Source of the DNA: Novosphingobium sp.
GTDB taxonomy: Bacteria; Pseudomonadota; Alphaproteobacteria; Sphingomonadales; Sphingomonadaceae
DNA length: 64,000 nt
Direction of reading: 5' to 3'
Assembly (NCBI RefSeq): GCF_030699305.1
Contig: NZ_JAUYNB010000008.1
Coordinates: 62,001 to 126,000 of the forward strand
Positions 50,202 through 58,409 of the stretch are shown piece by piece. Under the pieces are notes generated by a model. That model was not told where the DNA came from, made no database searches, and saw only the letters and a program-made list of their open reading frames with translations. Each line of letters opens with the position of its first letter. The stretch's first letter is position 1. A program made the position numbers and the translations under genes.

Positions 50202-51485
50202 GTGGGGAATCAGGTTAAGCTGGGCACCGGCAGCGGTGAGTTTGAATATCCCGTGCTTTCGGGCAGTGTCGGTCCGGATGTGGTCGATATTCGCAAGATG
50301 TATGCCCAGACGGGCATGTTCACATATGACCCCGGCTTTACCAGCACCGCCAGCTGCGAAAGCGCGCTGACCTATATCGACGGCGACGAAGGCGTGCTGC
50401 TGCACCGCGGCTATCCGATTGGTCAGCTGGCCGAAAATTCCAGCTTCATGGAAGTCAGCTACCTGCTGCTGAACGGCGAACTGCCGAGCGCCGACGAACT
50501 GGTGAAATTCGAAACGACGATCACCCGTCATACCATGCTGCATGAACAGCTGGCCACGTTCTACAACGGGTTCCGCCGGGATGCCCACCCGATGGCGATC
50601 ATGTGCGGCGTCGTCGGCGCATTGTCGGCGTTCTACCATGATTCGACCGACATTTCGGACCCGACCCACCGCAAGGTCAGCTCGCACCGCCTGATCGCCA
50701 AGATGCCGACGATTGCGGCAATGGCGTACAAGTATTCGGTCGGCCAGCCGTTCGTCTATCCGGACAACAAGCTGTCCTACACCGGCAACTTCCTGCGCAT
50801 GACCTTCGGCGTTCCGGCCGAAGAGTATGAAGTGATCCCGGCAGTCGAACGGGCGATGGACCGGATTTTCATCCTTCATGCCGATCACGAACAGAACGCC
50901 TCGACCAGCACCGTGCGCCTGGCCGGTTCGTCGGGCGCGAACCCGTTTGCCTGCATCGCGGCGGGCATTGCCTGCCTGTGGGGTCCGGCGCATGGCGGCG
51001 CGAACGAAGCCGCGCTCAACATGCTCAAGGAAATCGGCACGCCCGACAAGATCCCGCACTATATCGAGCGCGCGAAAGACAAGAACGATCCATTCCGCCT
51101 GATGGGCTTTGGCCACCGCGTCTACAAGAACTACGATCCGCGCGCGACGGTCATGCAGAAAACCGTGCGTGAAGTGTTCGACGCGCTGAAGGTCACCGAT
51201 CCGCTGTTCGAAACCGCGCTGCGGCTGGAAGAGATCGCGCTGAACGATCCCTACTTCGTCGAAAAGAAGTTGTTCCCGAACGTCGATTTCTATTCGGGCA
51301 TCATCCTGTCGGCGATCGGCTTCCCGACCACGATGTTCACCGCGCTGTTCGCACTGGCGCGGACTGTTGGCTGGGTGGCGCAGTGGAACGAAATGATTTC
51401 CGATCCCGGCCAGAAGATCGGCCGCCCGCGTCAGCTTTACACCGGCCCGACGCAACGCGATTACATCGACGTATCGAAGCGTTGA
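50202..51485 (+). CDS. gltA: Citrate synthase
   Basis: 427 aa from a GTG start with GGAG about ten bases upstream. Type II hexameric citrate synthase: [31 protein letters not shown] (catalytic His), [15 protein letters not shown] and [11 protein letters not shown] (catalytic Asp). It condenses acetyl-CoA with oxaloacetate, the entry to the TCA cycle. A strong hairpin follows. Confidence 0.97.
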
Positions 51486-51645: not shown

Positions 51646-53124
51646 TCAGCCCTCGGCTGGGCCGGTTTCGTTTTCGCGCCCGTCACTTACGGAAGACCCG
51701 TCACTTACGGAAGAATCGTGCCCCGTGGTCGGGGCCTGCGCCAGCAGATCGGCCGGCACGTCCAGTATGAACCGTGCGCCCTGACCGGGGGCGCTGTCGA
51801 TGCTCAGGTCACCGCCCATCGCCCGCGCCAAGCGGCGGGAAATGTACAGGCCCAGACCGGAGCCACCTTCATCGCTGCGGCCCAGCCGTTCAAACTTTTC
51901 AAACACCCGCGCCTGCTGGTCCGGCGACAAACCCGGCCCCTGATCGGCAACGATCAACCGGGCGCGCGCGCCCGCATCTTCCAGCCTGATCCAGATCTGC
52001 GAATTGTCCGGTGAATAGCGGATGGCGTTGCCAACCAGATTGAGCAGCACCTGCAGCACGCGCCGAAATTCGGCAATCGCGGGCAGATGCTCGCCCAGAC
52101 GGGGGGCGTCGATCGTGATCCCGCGTTCCTGCGCGCGGACCCCCAGAATGCCTGCGGCGCGGCGGGCCACGTCGGCCAGATCGATCCGGTCCGGCGCGGT
52201 GTTGAAATCCTCGGCCTCAACCACTTCAAGGTCGGCCAGATCCTCGACCAGTGCCAGCAAGTGCTGTCCGGCTGCGGCGATATCAGCGGCATACTGGCTG
52301 TATTCATCCGCCAGCGGACCGGCCAGCCGGGTCCGGATCGTTTCGGCATTGGCAATGATCCGCGCGATCGGCTGGCGCAGCACGGGCGCGATATCCCGGC
52401 CGACCAGCCCTGGCCCGTTCTGCGGCATGACATTGGCCGGAAGCACGGCGGACGGTCGCGCAATGGCCGGAAGCGGCTGCTGGGCGGTCAGGCAAAGTTC
52501 AAAGCCCGCCGGTTCGCCGCCGGGTTGCAGTTGCGGAAACAGGCTGGCACGCCAGACACGCGGCGACGCCGGGATATCGAGCGTTGCCCCATCGAGCAAC
52601 CGCCAGTGCAGCGGCTGGCGATGCGCACTCCCGGCGATGGAGACGAAATCGGTCCACGGCTGGCCTGCGCCTGCGCGCATCGCGTCAGCCAGGTCAGCCA
52701 GATCCGCAGCGCTTGAGTCCACCGCCAGCACCCGCTGCTGCGCGTCGAGCCGGGCCACCAGCTCCGCCACGGCCTGATCAATCGCGGCGCGGCGCTCTGC
52801 CGCTGCCTGCATATCCTCTGGCGGAAGCGGCACCGCCTGCCAGCTGCGCAAGGCAATCGTGCAACTGCCACTGGCCGTATCCGGCGTGACTTCAACCCAT
52901 GCGGTGATGGCGTCCTGCCCGTCGGTGGCCTTGATCGTGCGGGCCAGCTTCAGTCCGTATTCGCGCGCCTTGCGGACCACTTCCAGCAGCGCCGGAATCG
53001 CAACGGTGCCCGGTATTTCACCGCCGCAGCGCCGCTGCAGGCCCGCCAGCGGCTCATCCGCGCTGATCAGGCGTCCGTCGCCATCACATTGCGCTTGCGC
53101 CAGAAAGGAACTGTCCGGTGTCAT
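51646..53124 (-). CDS. Histidine-kinase-like protein lacking the phospho-acceptor His
   Basis: 492 aa, no membrane segment. The C-terminal HATPase domain is intact: NLVGNAIRYSP (N box, 362-372), DQGPGLS (394), FEKFERLG and GGSGLGLYISRRLARAMGGDL. In the dimerisation region GRDIAPVLRQPIARIIANAETI aligns with the H box SHELRTPL so that Pro247 replaces the His. The N terminus (1-230) may contain PAS-like folds. Last gene of a four-gene operon starting at 55706. It could bind ATP and signal without phosphotransfer. Confidence 0.8.
   Translation of the reverse strand: MTPDSSFLAQAQCDGDGRLISADEPLAGLQRRCGGEIPGTVAIPALLEVVRKAREYGLKLARTIKATDGQDAITAWVEVTPDTASGSCTIALRSWQAVPLPPEDMQAAAERRAAIDQAVAELVARLDAQQRVLAVDSSAADLADLADAMRAGAGQPWTDFVSIAGSAHRQPLHWRLLDGATLDIPASPRVWRASLFPQLQPGGEPAGFELCLTAQQPLPAIARPSAVLPANVMPQNGPGLVGRDIAPVLRQPIARIIANAETIRTRLAGPLADEYSQYAADIAAAGQHLLALVEDLADLEVVEAEDFNTAPDRIDLADVARRAAGILGVRAQERGITIDAPRLGEHLPAIAEFRRVLQVLLNLVGNAIRYSPDNSQIWIRLEDAGARARLIVADQGPGLSPDQQARVFEKFERLGRSDEGGSGLGLYISRRLARAMGGDLSIDSAPGQGARFILDVPADLLAQAPTTGHDSSVSDGSSVSDGRENETGPAEG
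51679..51714. repeat. 18-bp tandem duplication in the kinase-like gene
   Basis: CCCGTCACTTACGGAAGA occurs twice head to tail, adding an in-frame second SSVSDG hexapeptide near the C terminus of the kinase-like protein. Confidence 0.9.
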
Positions 53125-53127
53125 GGA

Positions 53128-54087
53128 TCAAGCGCCGGGATAAGCGACCGAACGGGCCAGCAGCGCCGCTGCACGGTCTGCCCCCAGCACTTCGAATCCT
53201 TCGGGCAGGCTGACTTCGGGGTGGAGCGAAACGAACTGTTCTTCCACCGCCTGCGGCTTCAGCCCCGAAGCGCGCAGCGCCAGCGCCAGCCGGGCAAGCT
53301 GCCCTTCATTGGTGGAAAGCACCGCCGTATCGCGCGATTGCCCCGATGCCAGCGACAGCGCGCTGAGGAACATCGCCGCTCCGGCATGGGTGATCGACAG
53401 GGCTGCGGTTGCACCGCCGCCCATCCCCGCGATCAACCGCGCAATCAGGCCAAGGCGGCTGCGGCTTTCGTCATATTGCACGCGCACCGCGGTTTCCGCC
53501 GCGACCCGGTGGACTTCCTCTGCCCCCTGATGCGTGCGCAGCGCCTGAAGCGCGGCGTGCAGGAGATCGGCGGGCAGTTCCGAAAGCGGCAACTGCATCC
53601 GCCGCTGGTTCTGCACGAATCGCGCCTGCGCGGCCAGCAGCGCCATGGCGGTCGCCCCGGTCGCGCCATCGGCCGAGGCCACCAGCGCCTGCACCAGCGG
53701 TGACAGCACGGGATCGAGCGCCAGCCGGGCCTGCAACCGCTCGGTCAGTTGCCACTCCAGCGCCAGCGCGTGCGTGTGGGCCAGGAATGCCGGATCGCTG
53801 ATGAAACCATAGACCATCGCGTCATAGGCGTCGCCCGGATGGTCCCGCGCATCGGGTTGGCCAGCCGCTGCGCCAAGCGCATCCAGCAACTGCCGGGCGA
53901 CATCGTGCATCATTCCGCGCACCCGCGCGATGATCTCGTCACTGAACAGCGAATGGTCATCATTCGCCAGCAAATGGCGCAAGATCGGCGCGATCGTTCC
54001 GATCAACGCATCGCCATGCGCCAGATCTTCCCTGAGGGCGGCTTCCACCTGCGGATTGGCCGAAACGTTGGCAATGGTGTCATTCAT
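53128..54087 (-). CDS. Conserved helical protein of unknown function
   Basis: 319 aa, Ala/Leu-rich and predicted mostly helical by eye. I do not recognise a family with confidence; the helical repeats slightly recall DUF2336 proteins. Segments such as DAYDAMVYGFISDPAFLAHTHALALEWQLTERLQARLALDPVLSPLVQALV and VLSTNEGQLARLALALRASGLK look conserved in style. It lies three bases upstream of the kinase-like gene and 23 bp after the membrane protein gene, so the products likely act together. Confidence 0.75.
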   Translation of the reverse strand: MNDTIANVSANPQVEAALREDLAHGDALIGTIAPILRHLLANDDHSLFSDEIIARVRGMMHDVARQLLDALGAAAGQPDARDHPGDAYDAMVYGFISDPAFLAHTHALALEWQLTERLQARLALDPVLSPLVQALVASADGATGATAMALLAAQARFVQNQRRMQLPLSELPADLLHAALQALRTHQGAEEVHRVAAETAVRVQYDESRSRLGLIARLIAGMGGGATAALSITHAGAAMFLSALSLASGQSRDTAVLSTNEGQLARLALALRASGLKPQAVEEQFVSLHPEVSLPEGFEVLGADRAAALLARSVAYPGA

Positions 54088-54110: not shown

Positions 54111-55382
54111 TTAAGGCGGCGTTAGCCGCGCCTTCAGGCTGGAAACCAGAATTCCGCCAGCGGCCAGCGCCAGCGCCGCGAGATGAACCGCCTCGCTACC
54201 CACGCCCGCCATCACGGCCACGGCCAGGCTCAGCCCCACAACGGCCCGATCCTTGAGCCAGACGGTCCACCGATGATCGATCGCGGTCGGCAGAATGCGC
54301 AGCAGCGCGAACAGCATCAACGGCGGAAACAGGCGGTCCGGATCAAACGGCGCCCCGGCCGGCGCGGCATTCCAGGCCAGCAGCGCAACCATGATCCCAT
54401 CGATCAGCCAGCCATAAGCGGCGCGGCGGCTCAGGCCGATGCCGCCGCGATCCGCCGCATCGCTCTGAATGCGGGCCAGCATCACGGCCGCCTCGCGCAC
54501 GATCCACCCCAGCGCGCAGCAGATCAGGCCAAGCGGAACCAGCCCGAACCAGCCCGATCCAAGCCCCAGCACGGCCAGCACGACCGCCGCGATAACCACC
54601 GACCCCGCCCCGCTTCCGGCATGGAGCAGGCTGGGGCCGTACGCGTGAACCGCGCTGCGGGCGATCCCGCGCGACAGGTTCAGCGCTTCCCCGCCCCCGG
54701 TACGCTGCCTGATCCACACCGGTTCAAGCGCCTGGGCGTCCGCCTCACTGCGGATCAGCGACCAGAATACCCCATCCTGACCGAGCGGCGGCAACGGACG
54801 CTGGGGGATTCCGGCTTGCAGGGCGATGCGTTGCAGCGCTGAAATGGCGTCACAATCCGCCGGCAGTTCCGCCATGCGTTCAACCAGCCTGCCCGGCACC
54901 CGCATGGCCGCAGCGGCGGCGTGGTTGAGGTCAATCCGTTCAAACCCGGCGGCCAGACCTTGCTCGATCGGCTGCACCAGCACGCCCTGCCCTTGCCCCA
55001 ACAGGGCCACCGCTTGCGGCGCAGACACGAACAGGCCGTCGCCCAGCGCGATCAGTTCATCCGCAGCGGTCACCAGACCCAGCAACGCCCGGGCACCGTG
55101 GATCACGTGAAAGCTGACCCCCGCAGCTTCGGCTTGATGTTGCAACCCGGCGACTTCGGGTGACATCCCGGCGGCCAGACAGATCACCCGTTCGCATTGC
55201 AGCGCCAGCGCCAGCGTCAGTTGCTGCTGAGCAACACTCAGGCCGCCAACGCGCAGGAACGCACGCGGAGGGCCACTGGGCGCAGTTGGTTCAAGCAGGG
55301 AAAGCAGGGCGACCCGCAGCGTCTTTCTCCGCGCATTTCGGGAACAGACGCGCGTTGTAGGAGTTTGGCATCGCGATGCCAA
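54111..55382 (-). CDS. Membrane protein with N-terminal nucleotidyltransferase-like domain
   Basis: 423 aa. The only in-frame start near the N terminus is a TTG at 55382 with no clear ribosome site, so the start is uncertain. Residues 25-200 (PPRAFLRVGGLSVAQQQLTLALALQCERVICLAAGMSPEV) resemble a GT-A/nucleotidyltransferase fold with a glycine-rich entry. About five membrane segments follow from residue ~265. This layout recalls enzymes making activated lipid precursors, but no CDP-alcohol transferase motif is visible. Second gene of the Hpt-like to kinase-like operon. Confidence 0.7.
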   Translation of the reverse strand: MASRCQTPTTRVCSRNARRKTLRVALLSLLEPTAPSGPPRAFLRVGGLSVAQQQLTLALALQCERVICLAAGMSPEVAGLQHQAEAAGVSFHVIHGARALLGLVTAADELIALGDGLFVSAPQAVALLGQGQGVLVQPIEQGLAAGFERIDLNHAAAAAMRVPGRLVERMAELPADCDAISALQRIALQAGIPQRPLPPLGQDGVFWSLIRSEADAQALEPVWIRQRTGGGEALNLSRGIARSAVHAYGPSLLHAGSGAGSVVIAAVVLAVLGLGSGWFGLVPLGLICCALGWIVREAAVMLARIQSDAADRGGIGLSRRAAYGWLIDGIMVALLAWNAAPAGAPFDPDRLFPPLMLFALLRILPTAIDHRWTVWLKDRAVVGLSLAVAVMAGVGSEAVHLAALALAAGGILVSSLKARLTPP

Positions 55383-55400: not shown

Positions 55401-55706
55401 TCACGCGGCGGCGGAAAACTCATCCAGGAATGCCTGAATCCGGCGCACCACAGTCGGTTCGCCGGGGGCTGCATCCAGCGCCTCATCCGCCAGCAGGATC
55501 AGCGGTTCGGCATGGAAACTGGCAGCCAGTCCCTTCAGCCGCATCGCCGCCATCTGCCAGTTGCCATCGCAGCGCGAGCGCCGCAGCAGATCGACCTGCC
55601 GTCCAAGGCTGTCGATAAACGCCAGCCGCAGCTCGGCAAACAGCGCAGAATCCTCGCCAGCAGCAGCAGCAAGGGTCGCGTCAAGGGCTCCAGATTCGTA
55701 TGCCAT
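55401..55706 (-). CDS. Hpt-like domain protein lacking the phosphorylated His
   Basis: 101 aa. The helical hairpin of a histidine phosphotransfer domain is suggested by MAAMRLKGLAASFHAEPLILLADEAL, where the canonical AHxLKG reads AMRLKG, placing Met55 where the phosphorylated His belongs. The flanking Lys-Gly and Ala-rich turns remain. It starts the leftward operon and is separated from the divergent coiled-coil gene by 69 bp. Confidence 0.75.
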   Translation of the reverse strand: MAYESGALDATLAAAAGEDSALFAELRLAFIDSLGRQVDLLRRSRCDGNWQMAAMRLKGLAASFHAEPLILLADEALDAAPGEPTVVRRIQAFLDEFSAAA

Positions 55707-55775
55707 GCAAACGGGTTTAGGCGAAACTGGTTAAACTGGGGTTTATCCACAAGCGGTCCGTGGTAAGCTGACGTC

Positions 55776-58409
55776 ATGTCCGGGGGATCACGCATCATTG
55801 CGATCGACGCAGGTGGGGAAAATACCCCTCCTGATGAACAACTTGCCAGCAATTCAGCGGCTGTTTCGGTGCAAGAAGACGAACCCGAATGGGGCCCCGA
55901 ATGGGCCGAGGATATGCCGCAGCGGGCGCCGCGCAACTGGTTCGGCCTGATCGCCGCCGCTTTGGCCGTGGCCGCAATCGCGGGCTGGAGCGCGCTGTTC
56001 TTCATCGTCAACCGCGCGAATCTGAGCACTGGCGGAACACCCGCGCAGTGGTCTGGCTGGATTCGCGACTGGTCGATTCCCGTGCTGCTGGTCGCCGCAC
56101 TCTGGCTGGTCGCCATGCGCAACAGCCGCCGGGAGGCTACGCGCTTTGGCGATGCAGCGCGGTTGCTGGCCAATGAATCCACCCGGCTTGAGCAGCGCCT
56201 GATCACCGTGAACCGCGAACTGAGCCTGGCCCGCGAATTCATTGCCGCGCAGTCCCGCGATCTGGAAGCGCTGGGGCGGATGGCGGGTGAACGCCTGTCC
56301 GAACACGCCGCGCAGCTGGCCAGCCTGATTCAGGACAACGGCACCCGGATCGACACGATCGGCACGGTCAGCGAGGCCGCGCTCGACAACATGGAGAAGC
56401 TGCGCAGCCAGCTGCCCGTGATCGCCAGTTCGGCCAAGGATGTCACCAACAACATCGGCAACGCCGGCCGCACCGCGCACAGCCAGCTGGAAGACATGGT
56501 TTCGGGCTTCAACAAGCTCAACCAGTTCGGTCAGGCGAGCGAACGGCAGGTGCGCCAGCTGCGGGAACTGGTCGATCAGACGCTGGCTGAATTCACGCGT
56601 CAGGCGGACCAGATGGAAACCACCGCCACGCAGCGCTTTGCCGCGCTGCATGACAGCGGAGCGGAGTTCCGGACCCAGCTCGAAACCGCCGAAGTCGAAG
56701 CCCTCGGAGCCGTGCGCAGCCGCGCGCAGGCGCTGCATTCGGAACTGGATGCCGCGCGCGCGCTGCTCGATAGCCATGAAGCGGAAAGCCTCACCTCGCT
56801 GCGCTCACGCCTGACTGCGGTCCGTGATGAAAGCGCCGCGATTGCCCGCAGCCTGCGCGACGGCGAAGGCGCTGCGACCGACGCCTGGCACGAGGCAGTC
56901 ACCCGGCTTGAAACCGACCTGCGCGAAGCGATCGACCGGGTTGGCGCGATTGATGAAAAGGCGATGGAATCCGCCCGCGCCCGGCTGGCGCAACTGGCGG
57001 ACGAGGCTGAGACGGTCGACAAGCGGATGGCCGAACGCGATCAGCTGTTCAGTGACGAGCTGGAGCGCCGCCAGACCGATATGGACGCCCGTCAGACGGC
57101 CTTCATCGCTGCACTGCGCGCGCAAATGGGCGAACTTGACGCCGAACTGACCGCTCGTCAGGCCGAGCATGAACAGCAATCGCGCGCACTGGTTGACCAT
57201 ACCGAAACGATCAGCAGCCAGTTGGGCCAGTTCAGCCAGCGAATGCGCGAAATCGCCGAACATGGCGGTACCGCCAAGGCGGACATCGCCGCCGCGCTGG
57301 AAACTCTGACGCAGAACCTTGCCGCCAGCCGTCAGGCGCTGGCCGGCACGGACAGCGCCATTGCCGGATTGACCGACGACAGCGTGCGCTTGCTTGAGCT
57401 GATTCAGGCCAGCATGCACCATTCCGCCGAGGAATTGCCCGCCGCGATCCGCATCAGCGATGCCCGGCTGGCCGAGCTGGAAACCCGCGCACTCAGCCTG
57501 CGATCAACGCTGGAGGTTGCCGAAAGCCGCGGCGAAGCGCTGGGCGGCTATGTCCGGCAAAGCAAGGCCGATCTGGCCGATGCGGTCGGCACGGCTGAAC
57601 ACCTGCAAGCCGCCATGCACGCCCAGTCCACCGCCCAGGCGGCCACTCTGACGCAGCTGCACAGCGCGCTGGAAATCGCCCGCAGCGCGAGCGAGGCGCT
57701 GGCCGAACAGGCCCAGACCGAACTGCGCGGTGCCATCGATGCACTGACCGGTTCGGCGCGCGATGCCGTGGCCGGGATCGAGACGATGAGCGCGGCGGCG
57801 ATTGCCGCGCTGGCTGACCGGCTGGGCGAAGCCAGCGGAGCGGCGATCGAACAGGCGATGCGCACCCGCGCCGCTGAAATTGCCGGACAACTGGAACAGG
57901 CCGCCGCCCACGCTGCCGGGGTCAGCCGCGAGGCGGCGGTGCAACTGCGCGATCAGCTGGCGAAGGTGAACGAACTGGCCGGGAACCTGGAACGCCGGGT
58001 CGCCCAGACCCGCGCGCGGGCCGAAGAGCAGGTCGACAACGATTTCGCCCGCCGGGTGGCGCTGATCACCGAATCGCTCAATTCAAACGCCATCGACATC
58101 GCCCGCGCGCTGGACAGCGATGTGACCGACACCGCCTGGGCCGCCTATCTGAAAGGGGACCGGGGCGTATTCACCCGCCGCGCGGTGCGGCTGATCGACA
58201 ATCCCGAAGCCAAGGCGATTGTCGCCCTGTATGAGGGGGACCGTGATTTCCGCGATCATGTCAGCCGCTATATCCACGATTTCGAAGCGATGCTGCGCCA
58301 GCTGCTGTCCACCCGCGATGGCCACGCGCTGAGCGTGACGCTGCTATCGTCGGACATGGGCAAGCTCTACGTCGTGCTGGCGCAAGCAATCGAGCGGCTG
58401 CGCAACTAA
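55776..58409 (+). CDS. Large membrane-anchored coiled-coil protein, TipN-like architecture
   Basis: 877 aa. Two membrane segments (about 54-78 and 99-114) precede more than 700 residues of heptad-rich coiled coil with many Ala, Glu, Gln and Arg. The C terminus from about 790 is more globular (DTAWAAYLKGDRGVFTRRAVRLIDNPEAKAIVALYEGDRDFRDHVSRYIHDFEAML). Length and layout match Caulobacter TipN, a birth-scar polarity marker. No chemoreceptor signalling tip is visible. The TipN link is architectural inference. Confidence 0.65.
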   Translation: MSGGSRIIAIDAGGENTPPDEQLASNSAAVSVQEDEPEWGPEWAEDMPQRAPRNWFGLIAAALAVAAIAGWSALFFIVNRANLSTGGTPAQWSGWIRDWSIPVLLVAALWLVAMRNSRREATRFGDAARLLANESTRLEQRLITVNRELSLAREFIAAQSRDLEALGRMAGERLSEHAAQLASLIQDNGTRIDTIGTVSEAALDNMEKLRSQLPVIASSAKDVTNNIGNAGRTAHSQLEDMVSGFNKLNQFGQASERQVRQLRELVDQTLAEFTRQADQMETTATQRFAALHDSGAEFRTQLETAEVEALGAVRSRAQALHSELDAARALLDSHEAESLTSLRSRLTAVRDESAAIARSLRDGEGAATDAWHEAVTRLETDLREAIDRVGAIDEKAMESARARLAQLADEAETVDKRMAERDQLFSDELERRQTDMDARQTAFIAALRAQMGELDAELTARQAEHEQQSRALVDHTETISSQLGQFSQRMREIAEHGGTAKADIAAALETLTQNLAASRQALAGTDSAIAGLTDDSVRLLELIQASMHHSAEELPAAIRISDARLAELETRALSLRSTLEVAESRGEALGGYVRQSKADLADAVGTAEHLQAAMHAQSTAQAATLTQLHSALEIARSASEALAEQAQTELRGAIDALTGSARDAVAGIETMSAAAIAALADRLGEASGAAIEQAMRTRAAEIAGQLEQAAAHAAGVSREAAVQLRDQLAKVNELAGNLERRVAQTRARAEEQVDNDFARRVALITESLNSNAIDIARALDSDVTDTAWAAYLKGDRGVFTRRAVRLIDNPEAKAIVALYEGDRDFRDHVSRYIHDFEAMLRQLLSTRDGHALSVTLLSSDMGKLYVVLAQAIERLRN

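Follow-up and report, generated by a model that had tools for sequence, protein, structure and literature searches.

A conserved Hpt-like protein lacking its phospho-histidine in Sphingomonadaceae: a putative phosphotransfer-free docking or scaffold protein

Gene content of the locus

The window analysed here is a stretch of 64,000 nucleotides from a Novosphingobium sp. genome, which is designated G000 in the sampled set; the features of interest are collected in Table 1. Four minus-strand genes are co-directional and tightly packed, with gaps of about 3 to 25 bases, so that the pseudo-Hpt gene and the kinase-like gene belong to one operon, as had been claimed in the initial annotation of this DNA. 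The operon is flanked by citrate synthase and gltX on the left and, beyond the divergent coiled-coil gene, by DUF1467, RNase J and coaX on the right, in an order that recurs across Sphingomonadaceae. Citrate synthase adjoins the kinase end in most members of the family; the Caulobacter citrate synthase is described as a cell-cycle regulator in a study that also mentions TipN (PMC7083601).

Table 1. Positions of the genes and elements within the window.
Feature	Position	Strand	Remarks
Pseudo-Hpt	55401..55706	(-)	101 aa, ATG start, first gene of the operon
Membrane protein, CDP-alcohol phosphatidyltransferase-derived	54111..55382	(-)	start codon uncertain
DUF2336 protein, diverged	53128..54087	(-)	319 aa; PF10098 in same-place homologues
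Pseudo-histidine kinase	51646..53124	(-)	492 aa; P247 replaces His, codon 52384-52386
Coiled-coil protein	55776..58409	(+)	877 aa; divergent from the pseudo-Hpt gene
Conserved C-terminal domain of the coiled-coil protein	58050..58406	(+)	
TTAAACTGGGGTTTA	55731..55745	.	CtrA-box-like, in the divergent promoter
Citrate synthase	50202-51485		adjoins the kinase end of the operon

The product of the second operon gene descends from CDP-alcohol phosphatidyltransferases and carries a nucleotidyltransferase-like N-terminal half. The DGxxAR motif is missing from every member of the main clade of Sphingomonadaceae (delimited below) but present in the orthologue of the outgroup genus represented by G180 and G289, to whose phosphatidyltransferase the protein is 30% identical over 417 aa. 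At the outgroup locus L142 (8652-9371 and 10627-12408) the phosphatidyltransferase gene adjoins a further nucleotidyltransferase-like gene, a pairing that suggests a former phospholipid-headgroup cluster. The third gene product has no Pfam match in the window itself, the DUF2336 match being obtained with its homologues at the same place; a literature search on DUF2336 returned no paper.

The structural model of the fourth gene product comprises a PAS-like N-terminal half, a DHp hairpin and an ATP-binding domain. It had been proposed that this kinase-like protein lacks its phosphorylation site as well, and indeed the H-box histidine is replaced by proline in the window and is lost in 47 out of 47 main-clade kinase loci, with the N, G1 and G2 motifs of the ATP site intact. 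The replacing residues vary widely (P, A, Q, R, N, V, E, D, K, T and S). The syntenic homologue in G180 and G289, which is 40% identical to a main-clade kinase over 371 aa, carries HELRTPL. A profile of the operon kinase matches the DivL structure 4q20 with an E-value of 3.2e-30. It is nevertheless not the DivL of this organism, since the genome encodes, at another place (G000:C34, locus L286, 882-3020), a separate DivL-like kinase with multiple PAS domains that reads YEFRTPL instead of HELRTPL, and the operon kinase harbors proline rather than tyrosine at the site.

The divergently transcribed coiled-coil protein has two hydrophobic segments near its N terminus. Of the genomes sampled, 117 of 121 from Sphingomonadales and 110 of 289 from Alphaproteobacteria encode its conserved C-terminal domain, and some of the class-level matches lie in frames near 2000 aa, which corresponds to the size of GPR of Agrobacterium (ca. 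226 kDa, described as similar to TipN; PMC8546619). Membrane segments followed by a long coiled coil are likewise features of TipN and GPR; the likeness concerns architecture and size and is taken as a lead. A literature search on RgsE together with TipN found no paper.

The divergent promoter of 69 bases contains TTAAACTGGGGTTTA, the sole match to TTAANNNGGGGTTTA in the genome, which resembles a CtrA box and represents a candidate element by its sequence. Of 111 distinct main-clade loci, 99 have TTAA-N7-TT at a distance of 22-31 bases from the start of the Hpt gene, compared with 1.3 expected from shuffles; these loci are related rather than independent sequences.

Sequence, predicted fold and conservation of the Hpt-like protein

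Hpt proteins are small bacterial signalling proteins in which phosphate is normally relayed via one histidine residue. In the window protein, residues 54-59 read AMRLKG in place of AHxLKG, as noted in the initial annotation, and Met55 occupies the phospho-histidine position, so that the phosphorylatable histidine of HxxKG is absent. The codon of Met55 (ATG, 55542-55544) is at least two base changes away from any histidine codon. Arg56-Leu57-Lys58-Gly59, Trp50 and Phe64 are still present. Searched alone against Pfam, the protein reaches 14.2 bits for Hpt (PF01627), under the cut-off of 24.6, while PF01627 is recognised (E <= 0.01) in 32 of the 63 aligned family sequences. The family profile detects Caulobacter ShpA (PDB code 2ooc, E = 5.9e-9), with the ShpA histidine aligned to the Met55 column.

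The AlphaFold2 model depicts an Hpt-like bundle of five helices (pLDDT 92.5, pTM 0.82). Hpt proteins are the top matches of this model in Foldseek, among them 3myf (probability 1.00, TM 0.65) and ShpA (2ooc, TM 0.63); the E-values are above 0.1, which small bundles commonly give, and the weight rests on the agreeing names of the matches. The prediction of a fold other than the Hpt bundle had been named as a possible refutation and did not occur. According to this model, the window protein is an Hpt-derived helical bundle devoid of the phospho-histidine. Whole-genome Pfam searches found no PF01627 Hpt domain in G000 or in its near relative G024; the only recognisable Hpt relative in G000 is thus a protein without its histidine.

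Orthologues were detected in 202 of the 301 sampled Sphingomonadaceae genomes and 67 of the 91 genera, a count in which a few of the weakest matches are histidine-bearing outgroup Hpts or spurious. Among 150 distinct main-clade sequences the former histidine site is occupied by Met (61), Leu (43), Trp (17), Gln (10), Ala (4), Glu (3), His (2) and other residues in the remainder; the histidine is hence missing in 148. Together with the distance of at least two base changes from a histidine codon, this agreement dismisses chance or sequence error as the cause. The column ranks 78th of 91 in conservation, and Trp50, Arg56, Phe64, Leu57 and Ala61 are all found in the top 13. These five are near-invariant (Trp50 150/150, Phe64 148/150, Arg56 147/150, Leu57 142/150, Ala61 142/150); Lys58 (124/150) and Gly59 (131/150) are mostly kept, yet less so than the flanking residues.

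The reading frames are uninterrupted in nearly all genomes. Pairwise dN/dS against close relatives amounts to 0.04-0.13, which denotes strong purifying selection; no other operon gene in the comparison has values as low, and those of citrate synthase and RNase J are equal or higher. The low dN/dS and a conserved core despite a free histidine column imply that the gene is functional and that its role is not tied to the histidine. Judged from the sequence comparisons, the loss of the histidine is old and under selection.

The two main-clade exceptions are isolated genomes, G221 (L287) and G130 (L110/L289). A coupling to a restored kinase histidine does not apply, as their kinases carry Thr and Val at the H-box position. 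Both cases agree with an unconstrained site at which histidine turns up now and then.

Ancestry of the locus and order of the losses

Hpt proteins with the histidine, encoded beside the same coiled-coil gene, occur within Sphingomonadaceae (G180, G289, G194, G298 and G136), in other Sphingomonadales families (G062, G063, G065, G070, G076 and G081) and in two further alphaproteobacterial families (G518 and G656). The coiled-coil gene is therefore an ancestral neighbour, and this synteny predates the loss of the histidine. The initial annotation had held that orthologues retaining the histidine would speak against its interpretation; such orthologues do exist, but in outgroups and the two main-clade genomes mentioned above, and they demonstrate the descent of the pseudo-Hpt from a real Hpt without counting against the loss.

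A response regulator and then a second Hpt come after the Hpt gene in G136 and in the Sphingomonadales families outside Sphingomonadaceae (coiled-coil gene, then Hpt, response regulator and second Hpt at L208, L210, L215, L216 and L137). The response regulator bears SNWxMSPVDGM..LRWIRRHKDSPDRF and the second Hpt bears AHDMKGQGGTFGYPL. This cluster is conserved across Sphingomonadales families. Close relatives of the two proteins (53-86% identity) were found only in the outgroup families and G136, the other Sphingomonadaceae genomes tested giving generic receiver matches only and no match to the second Hpt. As far as these searches indicate, the pseudo-Hpt has lost its ancestral partners, the response regulator and the second Hpt, in the main-clade genomes tested.

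In the RNase J tree, G136 branches first, followed by the group of G180/G289 and G194/G298, all outside the main clade; the order of events derived from it is that of one gene, with several weak deep nodes. The outgroup genus of G180 and G289 retains all three active sites (Hpt, kinase and phosphatidyltransferase), whereas the main clade has none. In the sister genus of G194 and G298 the Hpt histidine is present and the kinase site is Arg or Gly, from which it follows that there were two or more losses of the kinase histidine, or else a regain, and that the kinase could lose its histidine without a loss in the Hpt. The Hpt histidine, too, may have been lost more than once. Nor does the kinase belong to the ancestral neighbourhood of the Hpt, where other families of the order have the response regulator and the second Hpt. 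The earlier proposal of a loss of both phosphorylation sites thus stands for each of the two proteins, but the losses are not clearly a single coupled event. A kinase without a receiver domain is not normally the direct phosphate donor of an Hpt.

At L112, L113, L130, L132 and L140 the pseudo-Hpt gene lies by the coiled-coil gene without a nearby kinase, and genus g101 (L221, L222 and L223) has the coiled-coil gene together with those for the phosphatidyltransferase-like protein and the pseudo-kinase, with no Hpt found beside them. Pseudo-Hpt and kinase are consequently not obligate neighbours. In G117, G201 and G168 (L218, L219 and L220) the coiled-coil gene is present and the operon absent.

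Proposed role, alternatives and comparison with known systems

The reading we favor, with a probability of roughly 0.6, is that the gene encodes a pseudo-Hpt and that a retired phosphorelay has been reused as docking or scaffold proteins free of phosphotransfer. The phosphate-independent signalling or scaffold system suggested in the initial annotation thus emerges as the best reading of an Hpt bundle and a kinase that both lack the histidine and are both under selection. The tight conservation despite active-site losses across the operon argues that the pseudo-Hpt and the relatives of the kinase and the lipid enzyme now probably serve in binding or as a scaffold.

The comparisons show the following course. 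Ancestrally, as in other Sphingomonadales families and the two further alphaproteobacterial families, the gene encoded a histidine-bearing Hpt and was divergent from the coiled-coil gene beside it; in other Sphingomonadales families it was accompanied by the response regulator and the second Hpt. The phosphatidyltransferase homologue, the DUF2336 protein and the PAS histidine kinase came to adjoin it, and in the main clade the Hpt histidine, the H-box histidine of the kinase and the phosphatidyltransferase motif were all lost under continued purifying selection. The resulting pseudo-Hpt, unable to carry phosphate at the canonical site, would act by stoichiometric docking: a conserved face with a mostly large hydrophobic residue at its centre would bind either a receiver domain or one of two neighbours, the pseudo-kinase and the coiled-coil protein. 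Signalling would then depend on docking and conformation instead of phosphate, in the manner of DivL. The pseudo-kinase, whose ATP-site motifs are preserved, could add a conformational switch that depends on ATP. Assembly would probably take place at the membrane-anchored coiled-coil protein, possibly at the cell pole.

Several observations count against this reading, namely the non-obligate neighbourhood of Hpt and kinase, the histidine in G221 and G130, and the weak deep nodes of the RNase J tree; furthermore, the lower conservation of Lys58 and Gly59 relative to their flanks counts against regarding a receiver-docking face as established. A more elaborate scheme is put forward as speculative and on the whole doubtful. 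In it, pseudo-Hpt, pseudo-kinase and pseudo-phosphatidyltransferase, encoded in a family-wide operon, would all have lost their active sites after the cognate response regulator vanished. Joined with a polar coiled-coil protein in a single complex anchored in the membrane, they would sense purely by binding whether a cell-cycle response regulator is phosphorylated, and CtrA would control the system.

Alternatively, the bundle might operate outside two-component signalling and only hold a complex of coiled-coil protein, pseudo-kinase and DUF2336 protein together. A coiled-coil synteny older than the loss of the histidine, the many residues tolerated at its former site and the lost active sites of the neighbouring proteins would all fit such a purely structural subunit; the retention in most sequences of Lys58 and Gly59, which are typical of Hpt active sites, and the intact ATP motifs of the kinase do not, and we regard it as possible, with a chance of perhaps one in four. 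Somewhat less likely still is a decoy role, in which the protein would occupy receiver domains and so keep other Hpts or kinases from transferring phosphate. A preserved fold and a largely retained motif on the docking side, without the histidine, would suit this role, and there is a precedent in AHP6, a plant pseudo-HPt that inhibits cytokinin signalling by blocking phosphotransfer. However, the window genome and its near relative encode no PF01627 Hpt that a decoy could displace, and both the cognate response regulator and the second Hpt have disappeared, which would leave kinase-receiver pairs or ChpT-type transfer as targets.

A phosphorylation site moved to His65 (in SFHAE) is very improbable: this residue is histidine in 95 of the 150 main-clade sequences, but glycine in 42, including lineages that also lack the canonical histidine, and glycine in outgroup Hpts that possess it; His65, lying in the loop after helix 3, is neither conserved nor the ancestral residue. 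That the gene is a functionless, decaying remnant, as lost active sites and its absence from some genomes might suggest, is refuted by the dN/dS values, the intact frames in nearly all genomes and the invariant core residues.

For the favored reading, related cases are at hand. Pseudo-kinases (DivL) and pseudo-receivers are already known in bacteria and pseudo-Hpts in plants, while full-text literature searches of limited extent found no precedent for a bacterial pseudo-Hpt. With AHP6 the window protein shares an Hpt fold whose histidine is replaced and which has been kept by evolution; in contrast to AHP6 it is bacterial, is encoded in an operon with other proteins lacking active sites and is presumably of independent origin. 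Among solved structures ShpA comes nearest in the profile search and also ranks high among the fold matches, but it is a working phosphotransferase in the ShkA-ShpA-TacA relay of Caulobacter crescentus (PMC7010744), whereas the window protein has methionine at the phosphorylation site. The pseudo-receiver of ShkA illustrates the same principle for a receiver domain (PMC7010744).

The closest working model for signalling by binding only is DivL, a pseudo-kinase to which DivK binds in its phosphorylated form and which, though devoid of kinase activity, controls another pathway; its phosphorylation site is Tyr, or Ala in Magnetospirillum (PMC4211667). Like the operon kinase it is a PAS-DHp-CA protein without the phospho-histidine; unlike it, DivL carries Tyr or Ala in an otherwise preserved H box, whereas the site in the operon kinase is variable.

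A pseudo-Hpt kept throughout the family, together with outgroups possessing a working-type relay, provides a natural before-and-after series from phosphorelay to binding-only signalling, and makes it testable which Hpt features serve docking and which phosphotransfer alone. By analogy with these systems, the pseudo-Hpt system is best read as a bacterial counterpart of plant AHP6 and of DivL.
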